64,000 nucleotides of DNA from Natronolimnobius baerhuensis (GTDB lineage Archaea; Halobacteriota; Halobacteria; Halobacteriales; Natrialbaceae), in contig NZ_MWPH01000002.1 of the NCBI RefSeq assembly GCF_002177135.1, forward strand, positions 248,001 to 312,000. Reading direction: 5' to 3'. Both the position numbers and the translations under genes were made by a program. Numbering within the stretch: position 1 is the stretch's first letter; every line of letters begins with the position of its first letter. Below are positions 13,039 to 21,093 of this stretch, in pieces. The notes beneath the pieces were generated by a model. It was given only the letters and a program-made list of their open reading frames with translations. It made no database searches and was not told where the DNA came from.

Positions 13039-13198
13039 TGCAGTCGAACAAATACGATATAGATTCAATGAACTGAGAACGTCGGATATCCGTCGTCGGC
13101 TGCTCATGAAAGCAGAGACAACTCCGACAAGCGGACGTGGAATGGGTATCCACCTATATCGGGGAACGCTTTTACTTTCGCCCACCGTACACCGAGGT

Positions 13199-13426
13199 AT
13201 GTCAGACGTAGCGCTTGACGACCGTGGCCGTCTCACGCTCCCGAAGGAGGTCCGAGAGCGATACGGGGACCGATATCACGTCGTTCAACTTTCCGACGGT
13301 GTTAAATTGGTTCCCGTCGCCGACGACCCACTCGAGGCCCTTAGGGACGAATTCGAGGACGTCGAAAAATCGGCAGACGAACTCCGTGAAGAGGCGCGCA
13401 ATGCAGCGCTCGATGGGGCCGGATGA
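13199..13426 (+). CDS. vapB: AbrB-family antitoxin (VapB type)
   Basis: A 75-residue protein with a SpoVT/AbrB swapped-hairpin DNA-binding motif at the N-terminus (ALDDRGRLTLPKEVRERYG) and an acidic helical tail (about 42-72) that would wrap the toxin. The ATG at 13199 is favoured because a TATA-like run (CTTTTACTTT) lies about 27 bp upstream, giving a leaderless transcript, and the upstream codons are not conserved in type. It is 3 bp before vapC, forming a typical type II toxin-antitoxin pair. Confidence 0.88.
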   Translation: MSDVALDDRGRLTLPKEVRERYGDRYHVVQLSDGVKLVPVADDPLEALRDEFEDVEKSADELREEARNAALDGAG

Positions 13427-13429
13427 TAG

Positions 13430-13804
13430 ATGTATGCGGAAACCGACTTCCTTCTCGCACTGATTAAGGACGATGACTGGCTCGGCGAGGCTGCCGAGTC
13501 GGCATACCGGGAACACCGTGACGAGTTGTGGACATCACAGTTCACGCTCATCGAACTCCTGATGGTCGCCTACCGGGAGGAACGTGATACCGAACGCGTT
13601 GTTTCGAACGCCGCCAACCTCGTCGAGGTACGCGGTGACGTGGAGACGGTCGTTACGGCGGCGACGTACGTGGAAGACCACGGGTTTACACCGTTCGACG
13701 CACTTCATCTCGTGGAATCGAACGGCGACACCATTGTCTCGAGCGACGACACGTATGCAGATGTTACGTCCCGTCTCGACCTGAAGTCGGTCACCGAGGA
13801 GTGA
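13430..13804 (+). CDS. vapC: PIN-domain ribonuclease toxin (VapC)
   Basis: The 124-residue PIN domain has the acidic metal-binding residues Asp6 (ETDFLLAL), Glu42 (TLIELL), Asp90 (TPFDALHL) and Asp106/107. VapC toxins cut RNA and are held inactive by VapB, encoded 3 bp upstream. It is the intact counterpart of the truncated copy at 12645-12980. It is followed 43 bp later by rfcL. Confidence 0.9.
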   Translation: MYAETDFLLALIKDDDWLGEAAESAYREHRDELWTSQFTLIELLMVAYREERDTERVVSNAANLVEVRGDVETVVTAATYVEDHGFTPFDALHLVESNGDTIVSSDDTYADVTSRLDLKSVTEE

Positions 13805-13863: not shown

Positions 13864-15359
13864 AGACGTACCGGCCGACGACGCTGTCGGAGGTACGCGG
13901 GAACAACAAAGCCCGCGACAAACTCGAGGAGTGGGCACAAACCTGGGACGACCACGAGGATGCGGTGATCGTCCACGGTAGTCCCGGCGTGGGAAAGACC
14001 TCGGCGGCCCACGCGCTGGCCAACGACATGGGCTGGCCGGTAATGGAACTCAACGCCAGTGACGACCGGCAGGCGGACGTCATCGAGCGGGTTGCCGGCG
14101 AAGCCGCAAAAAGCGGCACGCTCACCGCGGGCGGCGCTGGTCGCCGGCTCGTGATTTTGGACGAGGCAGACAATTTCCACGGCAACGCAGACTACGGCGG
14201 CTCTCGAGAGGTCACGCGAGTCGTCAAGGACGCAAACCAGCCAATCGTCCTCGTCGCAAACGAGTTCTACGACATGAGCAAGTCGCTGCGTAATAACTGC
14301 GAGACAATCGAGTTCCGAGACGTCTCCAAGCGCTCGATTGTCCCCGTGTTGCGGGATATCTGTCGCCGCGAGGGGATCGAGTACGAGGACGCCGCCCTCG
14401 AGAAAATTGCGGACGCGACGAGTGGCGACCTGCGCTCGGCAGTCAACGATCTGCAGGCGGTCGCCGACGACGCCGAGCGCCTGACCGTAGAGGACGTCGT
14501 CACGGGCGACCGGGATACGACGGAAGGGATCTTCGAGTTTCTCGATACGGTGATCAAAAACGAGGATGCACAGGGCGCACTCCATGCCTCCTACGACGTC
14601 GACGAGAACCCCGACGAGATGTTGAACTGGATCGAAGACAACGTCCCGAAGGATTACCACGGCGCAGAACTGGCCGACGCCTATGGATACCTCGCGAACG
14701 CTGACCGTTGGCTCGGTCGCGTGCGCTCGAGTCAGAACTACTCGTACTGGCGGTACGCGACGGACAACATGACCGCCGGTGTCGCGGCCTCGCGTCGCGA
14801 ACCGAAAGGCGGGTGGACGCGCTACGGTCCGCCGAGTTACTGGTCGAAACTCGGCCGCAGCAAGGGGACTCGGAACACGCGCGATGGGATCGCCGAACGC
14901 ATCGCCGAACGAGAAGGGACGAGCGTGGCGACGGCTCGCCGCGAGATTCTGCCCTACCTGTCGGCGATGACTCACCACTGCAAGAATCGCGAGCTCACCC
15001 TGCAGATGGCCGCCACCTACGACTTAGACGAGTCGGAGGTCTCGTTTATCACCGGCAGCGGCAAAGACACGAACAAAGTCCAATCAATCGTCGCGGACGC
15101 CGAGGAGAAACAGGCCGAACTCGCCGTCGAACACTCCGGCTCTGCGTTCTTCAATACCGGCGACACCGAGGACTCGAGCGCGGACGACGGGTCTGCCGAC
15201 CCCGACGAAACCGATGACGAGGCCGACGGGCAGGCGACGCTTGCAGCCTCGAGTGGGTCAACGGACGACGGAGTCGACGACGACTCGAGTGAGCCAGAAC
15301 CGGAGCCGGAACCGACTGAACCGGACGAGGATCAGTCGGGCCTGAGCGACTTCATGTAG
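13848..15359 (+). CDS. rfcL: replication factor C large subunit (clamp loader)
   Basis: RfcL with RfcS loads the PCNA sliding clamp. The 503-residue product begins with the RFC box (WTETYRPTTLSEVRGN), has Walker A GSPGVGKT at 44-51 and Walker B LVILDEADN at about 101-109, and a helical collar domain. The last about 100 residues are highly acidic and disordered, typical of halophiles, ending in QSGLSDFM, a degenerate PCNA-interacting peptide. The first five codons are duplicated upstream at 13023-13037. Confidence 0.96.
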   Translation: MSDWTETYRPTTLSEVRGNNKARDKLEEWAQTWDDHEDAVIVHGSPGVGKTSAAHALANDMGWPVMELNASDDRQADVIERVAGEAAKSGTLTAGGAGRRLVILDEADNFHGNADYGGSREVTRVVKDANQPIVLVANEFYDMSKSLRNNCETIEFRDVSKRSIVPVLRDICRREGIEYEDAALEKIADATSGDLRSAVNDLQAVADDAERLTVEDVVTGDRDTTEGIFEFLDTVIKNEDAQGALHASYDVDENPDEMLNWIEDNVPKDYHGAELADAYGYLANADRWLGRVRSSQNYSYWRYATDNMTAGVAASRREPKGGWTRYGPPSYWSKLGRSKGTRNTRDGIAERIAEREGTSVATARREILPYLSAMTHHCKNRELTLQMAATYDLDESEVSFITGSGKDTNKVQSIVADAEEKQAELAVEHSGSAFFNTGDTEDSSADDGSADPDETDDEADGQATLAASSGSTDDGVDDDSSEPEPEPEPTEPDEDQSGLSDFM

Positions 15360-15407
15360 TCAAGTCGGCTCACGAGGGCCGTAGTACCGGCGAACGTGGC
15401 CGCTCGC

Positions 15408-15626
15408 TTACCGCAGTTTTGGCTGATACTGACCCTGATTGCTGTTCGAATCCCGTTGAAGGTATTGGCGAAGAAGGAATCGCGCGCCGACGTAGAGCGC
15501 ACCGAGCAGAATCGGTGTGACGATCACGGCGGTGAGAATGAACGGCTCCATCAGTTCAGCCATTTGCTCGTATCCGACGAGCCCGTTCAAAATCGGGGTC
15601 GCGGCTTCGATCAGACCTGTAGCCAT
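15408..15626 (-). CDS. small single-pass membrane protein
   Basis: A 72-residue product with a central hydrophobic helix (about 28-50, PFILTAVIVTPILLGALYVG) and a basic, Gln/Asn-rich C-terminus (LRQYLQRDSNSNQGQYQPKLR). It is convergent with rfcL. An AT-rich stretch (minus strand AAAACATATAGTAG, about 15640-15655) would serve as a promoter. No family recognised. Confidence 0.7.
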   Translation of the reverse strand: MATGLIEAATPILNGLVGYEQMAELMEPFILTAVIVTPILLGALYVGARFLLRQYLQRDSNSNQGQYQPKLR

Positions 15627-15698
15627 ATTGGTAATTCATAACACACTACTATATGTTTTTGGACTATCTGCTCCAGCCGACCTATCCGGGTAGCAGTC

Positions 15699-16412
15699 TC
15701 AGTCGGAGACACCCGCAACTCGCTCGAGGAACTCACTCGAGAGGGCCTCAACAACCCCGTCCGAAAGCGTTTCTGGATTACCCTCGAGTGGCGGCACCGT
15801 CTCAACAGAATAGCCAGTCATGCGCTCGATTTCGGCGGGATTCGTCCGCTCCGCGAGCGTGTCGCCTACGTACTCGTTACAGACGAGGCCGACAACGTCG
15901 ATGCCGCGGCGCTCGAGCGCGTCGACCGTGAGCGCGGTGTGATTGAGCGTGCCCAGTCCCGAACGAGTGACGACGACGGCGCTGGCCTCGAGGTCGGAAA
16001 CGAGGTCGATTACCTCGCGGTCGCCGGCGAGTGGAACACGGAGGCCGCCGATTCCTTCGACGAACGCGCGTTCAGCCCGCTCACACTCGTCCCGGCAGGC
16101 TGCCAGTATTTCCTCGTAGGAGAGCTGTTCGTCGGCAATCTCAGCTGCGACGCGAGGCGCGAGCGCCGGCTCGAGATACCGTGAACACGTCGCCGCGTCG
16201 CTGTCGCCACAGGCCTCGGCGACGAACGCCGCATCGTCGTCAGGCGGGTGACCCGTCTGGGCGGGTTTGATCGCTCGAGCGTCGAGTCCCAGTGCTCGAG
16301 CGTGTCGCGTGAGCGCCGCAGTCAGAACGGTTTTGCCGACGCCGGTTCCGGTTCCGACGACGGCGACCGGTGAAATGGCGTCGCTCGAGTGTTCGCCGTT
16401 GCTCTCTGCCAT
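15699..16412 (-). CDS. bioD: dethiobiotin synthetase
   Basis: BioD closes the ureido ring of 7,8-diaminopelargonate with CO2 and ATP. The 237-residue protein has the P-loop GTGTGVGKT at 20-28, the conserved K-P-x-Q-T-G (AIKPAQTGHP) at about 49-58, and FVEGIGGLRVPL. It starts 2 bp after bioF and ends the biotin operon. Confidence 0.95.
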   Translation of the reverse strand: MAESNGEHSSDAISPVAVVGTGTGVGKTVLTAALTRHARALGLDARAIKPAQTGHPPDDDAAFVAEACGDSDAATCSRYLEPALAPRVAAEIADEQLSYEEILAACRDECERAERAFVEGIGGLRVPLAGDREVIDLVSDLEASAVVVTRSGLGTLNHTALTVDALERRGIDVVGLVCNEYVGDTLAERTNPAEIERMTGYSVETVPPLEGNPETLSDGVVEALSSEFLERVAGVSD

Positions 16413-16414
16413 CG

Positions 16415-17686
16415 TTATAGCAGTCCGAGTTCGTCCCCAACCGTTCGAAACGCCTCGAGGCAGGCTACGATATCTGCTTGATCGTGTGTCGCAAGCGGCG
16501 TCACGCGAAGGCGACTTGTGCCCTCCGGAACAGATGGCGGGCGAATCGCGGGGGCGACGATACCGCGTTCGCGCAGCCCCGCGGCGAGTGCGAGCGCGCC
16601 AGTGCGCTCACCAACGATCACCGGCAGAATCTGGGAATCACCGGGCACGTCGAACCCCATCGTCTCGAGGCCGTCCCGGAGGTGGCTGACGTTCTCCCAG
16701 AGACGTTCGCGGGCGTCGGTATGTCGCGCGAGGTGTAACGCCTCGCTGGCTGTCGCGGCGGCCGGCGGCGTGAGCCCGGTCGAAAAGACGAACGAGCGGG
16801 CGTCGTTTACCAGACACTCGATCAAGGCGTTACTCCCGGCGACGTAGCCACCCTGACTGGCGAGTGCCTTCGAGAGTGTCCCCATCTGGATCTGGACGCG
16901 ATCCTCGAGGCCTTCGGCCTGGACGACGCCACCGCCGTCGACGTAGAGCCCGGTCGCGTGGGCCTCGTCGACCATGACCCAGGCACCGAACTCCTCGGCG
17001 AGGTCACAGATCGAAACAAGTGGGGCAACGGTGCCATCCATGCTGAAGACGGTATCGGTGACGATGAGCCAGGATTCGTCCGCCTCGGACGCGCTCTCGG
17101 AACGCGCCTCGAGTTTTGAGCGAAGGTCGGGAACGTTGCGGTGCTCGTAGACGACCGCTTCTGCGTTCGAGAGTCGACAGCCATCGATCAGACTCGCGTG
17201 ATTCAGTTCATCCGAGAAGATAACGTCGGGCTCGAGAGCTGTAATCGTTCCCACGTTGGCTGCGTATCCCGAGGGAAACGCCAGCGCGCGCTCGGCCGAT
17301 TTCGTCTCGGCGAGCAGGCGCTCGAGGTCGCGATGAACCATCGTATCGCCGGTGACGAGACGGCTCGCACCCGCGCCTGTACCGACGGTGGCAGCCGCCT
17401 GTCTGGCCGCATCCTGGACGCGCTGGTCGGCCGTCAGCCCCAAATAGTTGTTCGAACCGAACACCAGCGCCTCATCGGCGTCGAGAACCGGTAACTCGCT
17501 CCCAGAGGCCGCAGCGAAGTAGCCTCGCTCGGCAACCCGGTCGACGGGCGACAGCGTTCGTTTCAGTTCGCGTTCCTCGAGCGTGGAGCGCCGATTCTCG
17601 AGGTCGAACCCGCGATCTTCCATTCGCGTGAAGGAAGTCATTGCCGTGGTATCACTTTCACGGTTCTCGTTCGTCGATGGAGGCAT
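16415..17686 (-). CDS. bioF: 8-amino-7-oxononanoate synthase
   Basis: BioF condenses pimeloyl thioester with alanine to give KAPA, using pyridoxal phosphate. Motifs visible are GSNNYLGLT, the PLP-ring motif VDEAHATG and the Schiff-base lysine in GTLSKALASQGGY (Lys273 from the chosen ATG). A GTG at 17701 directly follows the preceding gene's TGA (TGAGTG), and could also be the start; the ATG at 17686 gives 423 residues. The N-terminus before EDRGFDLENRR is variable. Confidence 0.94.
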   Translation of the reverse strand: MPPSTNENRESDTTAMTSFTRMEDRGFDLENRRSTLEERELKRTLSPVDRVAERGYFAAASGSELPVLDADEALVFGSNNYLGLTADQRVQDAARQAAATVGTGAGASRLVTGDTMVHRDLERLLAETKSAERALAFPSGYAANVGTITALEPDVIFSDELNHASLIDGCRLSNAEAVVYEHRNVPDLRSKLEARSESASEADESWLIVTDTVFSMDGTVAPLVSICDLAEEFGAWVMVDEAHATGLYVDGGGVVQAEGLEDRVQIQMGTLSKALASQGGYVAGSNALIECLVNDARSFVFSTGLTPPAAATASEALHLARHTDARERLWENVSHLRDGLETMGFDVPGDSQILPVIVGERTGALALAAGLRERGIVAPAIRPPSVPEGTSRLRVTPLATHDQADIVACLEAFRTVGDELGLL

Positions 17687-17701
17687 GGACACACGGGTCA
17701 C

Positions 17702-18769
17702 TCAGAACCGAGGAAGCAACTCCGCCGGGCCGAAGACGCCGTATTCGCCGTTTCGATTCCGCCGCACACCGGCTTTGAGGTAGCCCAGTGCGGGGCCGTT
17801 GACGTTCGCCTCCATGCTCGTCTCATCGCCCAACTCGAACGTGTTCGTCGCCCGCTCGCCGTCGAACGTCCGACCGGTCACCGACACCGTAGTCGTCGTC
17901 GGTTTTTCGTCGCTGCGAACGTCGAGGATGCCGCCGACGGTCACATCAGCAGCGTCACAGATCCCCGCGCGCTCGAGGAGCACATCGTCTGCGTGTTCCA
18001 TGTCCTCGAACTCGAGGACGCCGTCGTGGTCGTCGATGATCGCCTCGATGTCGGCGTCGGCGAGGTCGCGCGCGGTCTCGATGTCGTATCCTGGCAGGTG
18101 TGCAATGTCCTCGCGGACGGTCCCCCGGTTATCCTCGTAGCCCGACTTCAGGCCGACGCCCCACCAGATGTCGACGGACTCGACCTCGACGAACGAGTGG
18201 GCGGCGAGCGCGGCCGCGCCGGTGAGAAAGCCCGGCGTCGCGCCCGCCCCGCAGATGAACGTGATTCCGGCATCCTCGAGTGCGTCGCGTCGGTCCTCGA
18301 GCATGCCGATCACGCGCGAGCGTTTGAGCACGTCGATCAGGACGCCCGAGTAGCCGGCCTCGATGAAGCGATCTGCCGTTCGCGGGATGAAGTCGTGTTC
18401 GTAGTTCGGCAGGGCAAGCAACACGGCATCAATCTCTGCGCCCGCATCGATGATCGCCTGAATCGGCTCGTCGGTTGCGACCGCCTGCTCGGAGGCGACG
18501 ACGCCGCGCTGGGTGCCGTGCTGCTTGACACCAGAACCGCCGCTCGTGGCCGTGTCACCGCCATCCGTGGCCACGTCATCGAGGCCACTATCGATATTCC
18601 CCTCCGTCGCCGCCAGCAGTTCCTCGACCGCCAGTCCGTCAGCGTCGAGTGCGACGCCGTGGCGGTCACACGCCGCGACCGGCGTCAACGCCGCCTTGTG
18701 CTGGCTGACCTCGAGTGCTCGTCGTCCGATACCACCGGTTCCGAGTACGGCAAATGTAATTTCGTGCAT
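17702..18769 (-). CDS. bioU: BioU-like NAD(P)-dependent protein of the biotin operon
   Basis: The 355-residue protein starts with a Rossmann motif (FAVLGTGGIGRRALE, about 6-20) and resembles saccharopine/homospermidine-type dehydrogenases. It lies between bioB and bioF in an operon without bioA. The known alternative to BioA is BioU, a single-turnover enzyme that donates the amino group of its own lysine to KAPA. Lys149 in LIDVLKRSRV is the best candidate for that lysine, judged by context only. A low-complexity Gly/Thr insert (about 62-92) interrupts the Rossmann fold. ATG 18769 is 19 bp after bioB. Confidence 0.75.
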   Translation of the reverse strand: MHEITFAVLGTGGIGRRALEVSQHKAALTPVAACDRHGVALDADGLAVEELLAATEGNIDSGLDDVATDGGDTATSGGSGVKQHGTQRGVVASEQAVATDEPIQAIIDAGAEIDAVLLALPNYEHDFIPRTADRFIEAGYSGVLIDVLKRSRVIGMLEDRRDALEDAGITFICGAGATPGFLTGAAALAAHSFVEVESVDIWWGVGLKSGYEDNRGTVREDIAHLPGYDIETARDLADADIEAIIDDHDGVLEFEDMEHADDVLLERAGICDAADVTVGGILDVRSDEKPTTTTVSVTGRTFDGERATNTFELGDETSMEANVNGPALGYLKAGVRRNRNGEYGVFGPAELLPRF

Positions 18770-18788
18770 GGTACTCTGTTCTAATGGT

Positions 18789-19886
18789 TCAGTCGTCACT
18801 CGACTCTGCGGTCGCGCTCGTCGCAGCCATCTCGTCCTGTCTCTCGTGGCGTCGTTTCACGGCCTCGGGGTCGAACTCATTGACCGACCGATTCGGCTCG
18901 AGGCCCGCGCGCTCGATGATCTCGAGGTCTTCGGCGGGCGATTGGCCCTCTGTCGTGAGATAGTCGCCAGTAAGGAGGCCGTCCGCGCCGGCCTCGAGGG
19001 GCAGGTGCTGTTCGTCGGGTGCAAGATTGACCTCGCGGCCGCCGGTGAGTCGGACTCGCGACTCCGGATGAAGGAGTTTGTACACCGCGACTGTTTTGAT
19101 AATCTCCTCGCGAGTGATCTCGACGCCCTGCTCGGCCAGCGGCGTCCCGGGAACGGGATTGAGGACGTTCACCGGCAGCGACGAGATGCCGATCTCCTGG
19201 AGCGCCACGGCGGCCTCGACGCGATCCGTCGGCGTCTCGCCCATCCCGAGGATGACGCCGGCACAGAGGTCCATCCCGGCGTCTTTGGCCACCTCGAGGG
19301 TCTTCACTCGGTCGTCGAAACTGTGCGTCTCGACAATTTCCGGGAAGTACCGCGGCGAGGTTTCGATGTTGTGATTGTAGTGTTCGATTCCCTCGGCGGC
19401 CAGTATCTCGGCTTCCTCTTCGGTGAGAATCCCCAGCGAGGCGTCGACCTCGAGGTCGCACTCGTCGCGAACGAGGCGAATCGACTCGAGGACTTCTTCC
19501 CACTCCTCTGGTCTGTGTTCTTTCGAGACGCCTTTCTCGGCGACGACGATTCCGAAACGCTGTGCGCCGTCGGCTTCGGCGCGTTTTGCGGCCTCGAGAA
19601 TTGTTTCGGGGCCGAGAAAATCGTAGGTGTCGATGCCGGTGTCGAAATGGACCGACTGCGCACAGAAGCCACAGTCTTCGGCGCAGTTACCCGCTTTCGC
19701 GTTGACAATCGAGCACGCATCGACGGTGCCATCGCCGAACTGCTCGCGAACCACACCGCCGGCCTCAGCGAGTGCCTCGACGGGTTGGGCGAGCAGCGCC
19801 ACCCCATCGGTCCGGTCGAGGCGTTTCCCGGCGAGTACGCGCTCGAGGGCGTCGTCAACTGTCGGATTCCCAGTCTCGTAAACCAT
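18789..19886 (-). CDS. bioB: biotin synthase (radical SAM)
   Basis: BioB inserts sulfur into dethiobiotin. The 365-residue product has the radical-SAM cluster motif CxxxCxxC at Cys68, Cys72 and Cys75 (NCAEDCGFCAQS), plus NHNIETSPRYF and ILGMGET, conserved in BioB. The acidic C-terminal tail beyond about residue 340 is halophilic. It is the first gene of bioB-bioU-bioF-bioD; an AT box (ATTATACA, minus strand, about 19910) lies near -25. Confidence 0.96.
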   Translation of the reverse strand: MVYETGNPTVDDALERVLAGKRLDRTDGVALLAQPVEALAEAGGVVREQFGDGTVDACSIVNAKAGNCAEDCGFCAQSVHFDTGIDTYDFLGPETILEAAKRAEADGAQRFGIVVAEKGVSKEHRPEEWEEVLESIRLVRDECDLEVDASLGILTEEEAEILAAEGIEHYNHNIETSPRYFPEIVETHSFDDRVKTLEVAKDAGMDLCAGVILGMGETPTDRVEAAVALQEIGISSLPVNVLNPVPGTPLAEQGVEITREEIIKTVAVYKLLHPESRVRLTGGREVNLAPDEQHLPLEAGADGLLTGDYLTTEGQSPAEDLEIIERAGLEPNRSVNEFDPEAVKRRHERQDEMAATSATAESSDD

Positions 19887-20125
19887 AGTTTCTAGGCATG
19901 TTGACGAGTGTATAATAGTTACGAAGGCTACGTGTTCGTTCGCGAGTCACTACTCGAACGACTGTCGGACGATCAAAAGTGACGCCAGTAAAGCAGAAAC
20001 TCGAGTTTTCAAACAGTTGGTCACCATCGGACGACGACCCGGCCGTTACGCTCATATAGAAAACTACTAATGATGCGTGAGTGATAAAATTCCAAAACTT
20101 AATTACATGGGATTATGTACCTCCT

Positions 20126-20944
20126 ATGAGTGAGTCCATGACCGATAGTACGATTGGGGAGCATTCGGGCGACAGCGGGTTCGATGTCGGGGCAAGCGCC
20201 GACGACCTCTTTGGGGCAATCGCAGACGAACAGCACGCGTCGTCGGCCGTCGACCAGGGCACGGCCCGACCACCGACCAGTGACGCTAAATCGTCGACAG
20301 CCAGTGACGCCGACGCCGGTACTGGCGGTGTCGAAGATCAGACCGCAGCAAGCGTCTTCGGCCAACTCAAAGCCGATACCGACACCGTAGAGCAGACGAG
20401 TGATGACGTCCTCGAGGGCGAGACACCGGAAGACATCATCGCAAGCGCTGACGAACCGGTCGACGAACCCGACTCGACCATCGACGACGCGTTGCTCGCC
20501 GACGAGGACGAACTCGAGGAACTCCTCCTTACAGGGCGGACGAAAGACGAGGAGTTCCTCTGGGTCGATCCAGATGGCGTGGCCGACGCCGAAAGCGAGA
20601 CGGTCGACTCGGAGACGGACCAGTCAGACGCCGAGAGCGAGACAGTCGGTACGGACGAGGCGGCAACACCCGAAGCGATGACAGCCGAAATCCTCGAAGA
20701 CGATGGCAAGTCGGCGACTGCGAGCGACTCAGAGACAGACGACAGCGACACGACTAGCAGTACGTCCCCGATTTCCGACTCGGAACCGGATACTCCCGAA
20801 TCGATCCCCTCACTTGAGGCCACTCGAGCCGACGAACCCGCCTCGAGTGACGCTGACCCAGCCACAGACGCAGACTCCGAAGACGACTCGTCTTCGAAGC
20901 CCGGCTTCATCCGGCGCGTCCTCGGTGCCCTCTCTCCGTTTTAG
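20126..20944 (+). CDS. highly acidic, mostly disordered protein
   Basis: The 272-residue product is dominated by Asp, Glu, Ser and Thr, with low predicted order. Three short islands look structured: DDLFGAIADEQ (about 26-36), ELEELLLTGRTKDEEFLWVDPDG (about 129-151) and a basic C-terminal helix ending SKPGFIRRVLGALSPF. The last could be an amphipathic anchor or docking helix. The ATG at 20126 is preferred to 20081: TTAATTA at 20099-20105 is about 25 bp upstream. No family recognised; it stands alone between the bio and suc operons. Confidence 0.75.
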   Translation: MSESMTDSTIGEHSGDSGFDVGASADDLFGAIADEQHASSAVDQGTARPPTSDAKSSTASDADAGTGGVEDQTAASVFGQLKADTDTVEQTSDDVLEGETPEDIIASADEPVDEPDSTIDDALLADEDELEELLLTGRTKDEEFLWVDPDGVADAESETVDSETDQSDAESETVGTDEAATPEAMTAEILEDDGKSATASDSETDDSDTTSSTSPISDSEPDTPESIPSLEATRADEPASSDADPATDADSEDDSSSKPGFIRRVLGALSPF

Positions 20945-21093
20945 TTGTTCGCCCACGTCTCCGGTCATGGACATCGCGGATTCGTTCGTTTTGAGTGCTC
21001 GTCAGAAGGCTCTCTGGAGATGTCTCTATCTCGAGGACGTCTGTAGAACTGAAACACGCGAGCGAAAACGGTGCTTGCTGCGTGTCGGCTCCG

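Follow-up and report, generated by a model that had tools for sequence, protein, structure and literature searches.

The protein encoded between bioB and bioF in the haloarchaeon Natronolimnobius baerhuensis, referred to here as X, is BioU, an assignment supported by homology, fold, a conserved lysine and histidine, operon context, the failure to find bioA, and the joint loss of bioU and bioD. By analogy with the Synechocystis enzyme, X very likely serves as an archaeal BioU in place of BioA and acts as proposed below. The gene lies in a window of 64,000 nucleotides, which is part of one contig of a 3.9 Mb genome that is 99.5% complete. A literature search of limited coverage found neither a report of a haloarchaeal BioU nor biochemistry on one.

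Fold and Active Site of X

X is encoded on the minus strand (17702–18769) and comprises 355 residues from the ATG at 18769, which is kept as the start codon among relatives, or 365 residues with the upstream GTG at 18799. The best NCBIfam match of X is BioU (NF047886, 335 bits), and the only PDB sequences that it matches well are those of Slr0355, the BioU of Synechocystis PCC 6803 (phmmer E value of 3.4e-86 against 6k36 over the whole chain; 41–42% identity). A structure model of X (mean pLDDT of 82), for which 24 haloarchaeal sequences served as input, matches the five BioU structures (6ir4, 6k36, 6itd, 6k37, and 6k38) with a Foldseek TM score of 0.94 and rmsd values of 2.0–2.1 Å, whereas the next-ranked structure scores 0.55. 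The sequence match and the predicted fold bear out the proposal of a preliminary description of this DNA that X is BioU. The same description placed X among Rossmann proteins of saccharopine-dehydrogenase type; the Rossmann assignment stands, but the type was loosely drawn, as the nearest non-BioU folds are meso-diaminopimelate, D-amino-acid, and lysine dehydrogenases. These enzymes have the Rossmann fold and a related second domain in common with X, and differ from it in overall similarity (TM score of ~0.5, 12–17% identity).

The lysine of the DVLKRS motif, residue 149 when numbered from the ATG and 159 from the upstream GTG (codon 18323–18325, minus strand), is the predicted sacrificial amino donor. 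It aligns with the catalytic Lys124 of Slr0355, both in the wild type and in the K124A entry 6itd, and its earlier nomination as the catalytic candidate thus falls on the counterpart of the residue that was mutated in that entry. Lys149 is invariant in the 24-sequence alignment, in all 62 haloarchaeal loci with a readable site (a frame-split copy, L061, is unreadable and was left out of the 62), and in 30 further loci. Similarly, His259 (codon 17993–17995, minus strand) aligns with His233 of BioU, the residue replaced in the H233A entry 6k38, and is invariant in the 24-sequence alignment. Alignment of the NAD(P)-binding site, which had also been suggested, shows that the GTGGIG motif at the N terminus of X is conserved, with Gly10, Gly12, Gly13, Ile14, and Gly15 invariant among the 24 sequences.

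X therefore has the fold, the catalytic lysine and histidine, the NAD(P) motif, and the pathway step in common with Synechocystis BioU. The two differ in that X is archaeal, that its gene sits in a bioB-bioU-bioF-bioD cluster, that it scores below the NCBIfam equivalog cut-off, and that it contains a disordered acidic and Gly/Thr-rich loop. This loop, residues 60–84 (18518–18592, minus strand), is hypervariable in length among relatives and has pLDDT values below 50. Given its variable length and predicted disorder, it is a surface loop of no functional novelty, and the functional weight once placed on it as an unusual insert is unsupported. As for the cut-off, the 335 bits of X compare with 600 bits required for NF047886, a score reached in none of 391 haloarchaeal genomes; the cut-off is treated here as an annotation threshold and not as a biological defining feature.

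Organization of the Biotin Operon

As the preliminary description had it, four adjoining genes on the minus strand form the run bioB-X-bioF-bioD (19886–15699 of the window). The first, bioB (18789–19886), encodes a biotin synthase of 365 residues from an ATG, with 342 bits to TIGR00433 (cut-off of 225) and the Pfam domains BATS and Radical_SAM. Downstream of bioU, bioF (16415–17623, minus strand) encodes 402 residues from a conserved ATG, with 400 bits to TIGR00858, and bioD (15699–16412, minus strand) encodes a dethiobiotin synthetase of 237 residues, with 105 bits to TIGR00347 (cut-off of 83.3). Relative to the curated NCBIfam cut-offs, bioB and bioD lie above and bioF narrowly below. The order bioB-bioU-bioF-bioD is shared by most of 63 haloarchaeal loci, a recurrence that argues against a chance arrangement, and also by four inspected regions of haloarchaeal plasmids (L122–L125). 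In a few of the 63 loci, only bioB and bioU are still adjacent; in genome G057, bioF and bioD lie ~295 kb from bioB-bioU.

Neighborhood clustering showed that the genes flanking the operon reflect local synteny, for example the replication factor C large subunit, sucCD, and a PIN/AbrB pair. In the window, a small AbrB-like gene and, after it, a PIN-domain-like gene (13106–13804, plus strand) resemble a toxin-antitoxin pair, as judged by eye. Among the other loci, Halorientalis salina carries bioB-bioU in two copies (L047 and L051), and in Haloterrigena sp. H1 the operon appears on two contigs (L042 and L043).

Upstream Elements and the Start of bioF

The open reading frame of bioF can be extended upstream to a GTG at 17701, which would place its start directly at the TGA of bioU, a coupling that had been regarded as unusual. 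This GTG is not conserved among relatives, whereas the ATG at 17623 is. In addition, a conserved 19-bp element, GAAYCGTGARAGTNAWANC, lies upstream of bioF (17648–17666, minus strand; one exact copy in this genome). All 50 copies that were measured, among them overlapping stretches of the same locus, place the element exactly 24 nucleotides before the bioF ATG. The same element precedes stand-alone bioF genes (L105, L129, and L134). The region between the element and the ATG contains a stop codon in at least four relatives and is therefore non-coding there. Judged from these sequence comparisons, the true start of bioF is very probably the ATG at 17623; the apparent TGA-GTG coupling is thus very probably an artefact of a mis-called start.

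Upstream of bioB, a TATA-like box followed by a CGTYAAC motif (19900–19915, minus strand) is found at a near-fixed distance from the gene across haloarchaea. From its sequence and position, this element is a probable promoter and a possible operator, and the bioB leader looks short or absent. The upstream pattern TTATANNNTCGTYAAC has a single match in this genome; 25 relatives add one occurrence before bioB and two elsewhere, neither of the latter before biotin genes, and the motif was rejected as the mark of a wider biotin regulon. An Rfam search of 15000–21000 returned no known RNA.

Proposed Mechanism

For Synechocystis BioU, PMC12915131 describes a covalent conjugate, a carbamate product, and a single turnover, and the same three features are inferred for the haloarchaeal enzyme from that work. 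By analogy, X would bind 8-amino-7-oxononanoate (KAPA) supplied by BioF, and the amino group of Lys149 would form an imine with the keto group of KAPA. Reduction of the imine by NAD(P)H would then give a covalent BioU-diaminononanoate conjugate, to which CO2 would be added to form a carbamate. Finally, oxidation of the lysine side by NAD(P)+ would release the carbamate to BioD, and the amine would be lost from the enzyme.

Because a single turnover is costly, one may ask if X is a BioU that turns over repeatedly, with another donor restoring the lysine amine, in which case X would not act as a suicide enzyme in vivo. The score of the haloarchaeal family, well under the cyanobacterial equivalog cut-off, would leave room for such a mechanistic difference. 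However, the lysine and histidine are invariant, the fold is nearly identical to that of cyanobacterial BioU, and neighborhood clustering reveals no additional gene that is conserved in the operon and could regenerate the lysine. A multi-turnover BioU is accordingly unlikely, and the single-turnover scheme is the preferred reading.

Absence of BioA and Joint Loss of bioU and bioD

BioA, a DAPA synthase and PLP-dependent aminotransferase, occupies the same slot in the pathway as X and is unrelated to it in fold and chemistry. The preliminary description had raised the possibility of a bioA elsewhere in the genome; none was found in the 99.5% complete assembly. The genome encodes three class III aminotransferases, which score best as ArgD/LysJ, as an acetylornithine-type enzyme (460 residues), and as HemL. 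The BioA cut-off was likewise passed by no genome in a sample of 80 haloarchaea. Since haloarchaeal bioF and bioU also score under their own cut-offs, the lack of a BioA above its cut-off is weak evidence when taken alone, and the argument for the absence of bioA depends instead on the better-fitting families of the three aminotransferases.

A strong BioU match is present in 149 of 391 haloarchaeal genomes (~38%). In a search for BioU outside the haloarchaea, 10 of 247 genomes of the phylum match at an E value of 1e-30, and all 10 belong to the same order as the source organism of the window. Co-occurrence was examined in the 80-genome sample, composed of 40 BioU-positive and 40 BioU-negative genomes, as raw counts uncorrected for shared ancestry. 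Every BioU-positive genome contains bioB and bioF (40 of 40), and bioD is present in all 18 that were tested. Among the BioU-negative genomes, 32 of 40 lack bioB, the remaining eight, which have bioB, all lack bioD, and a complete set of bioB, bioF, and bioD occurs in none of the 40. Several of the BioU-negative genomes with bioB contain decaying operons. In genome G181, what remains between bioB and bioF is a broken C-terminal piece of bioU, and bioD is reduced to a scrap; in G214 and G100, an N-terminal piece of bioU is left. Such bioU remnants (L101, L102, and L106) lie in genomes that are likewise without bioD. These decaying operons, together with the genomes that have bioB without bioD, indicate that bioU disappears along with the step that consumes its product.

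The remaining alternative casts X as a regulator or an unrelated Rossmann dehydrogenase and has DAPA come from one of the three class III aminotransferases. It could draw on the public labels of bioU in seven annotated plasmid records (transcriptional regulator in six, hypothetical protein in one) and on the unproven function of the 460-residue acetylornithine-type enzyme, but it is highly improbable, as the top structure and sequence matches of X are BioU alone, Pfam detects no DNA-binding domain in X, the aminotransferases score best in the families named above, and bioU and bioD are lost together.

Source of the Pimeloyl Group

The preliminary description noted that no pimeloyl-forming gene is near the operon. 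In the genome as a whole, the search for pimeloyl genes covered BioW, which was not found. Neighborhood clustering likewise showed no conserved pimeloyl gene beside the operon. The biotin transporter BioY is present in the genome. BioW occurs in 3 of 391 haloarchaeal genomes. In genome G021, bioW (L117, 2889–3659, minus strand) is located between bioB and bioU, giving the order bioB-bioW-bioU-bioF-bioD. In G095, bioW (L114, 1858–2945, minus strand) stands on a separate contig, adjoining a truncated fragment of bioB. G375 has a similar bioW, likewise on a separate contig (L113).

The bacterial BioC-BioH route requires a fatty-acid synthase, which haloarchaea are not known to possess. With this requirement and the presence of BioW in so few genomes, it is conceivable, if somewhat short of probable, that haloarchaea with the bioB-bioU-bioF-bioD operon make the pimeloyl precursor by a route without a known gene. 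The finding of BioU in haloarchaea sharpens the question of where the pimeloyl group originates.

Implications

The assignment of X as BioU corrects the label "transcriptional regulator" in public records, and it shows that the NCBIfam equivalog cut-off excludes all sampled haloarchaeal members of the family. From the co-occurrence and co-loss seen in the 80 genomes, DAPA formation appears to be the task of BioU in all haloarchaea that retain the complete set of late biotin genes. A suicide-type enzyme of vitamin biosynthesis, characterized so far in cyanobacteria, is now placed in a second domain of life, and haloarchaea that are culturable and genetically modifiable could allow single turnover to be tested in vivo.
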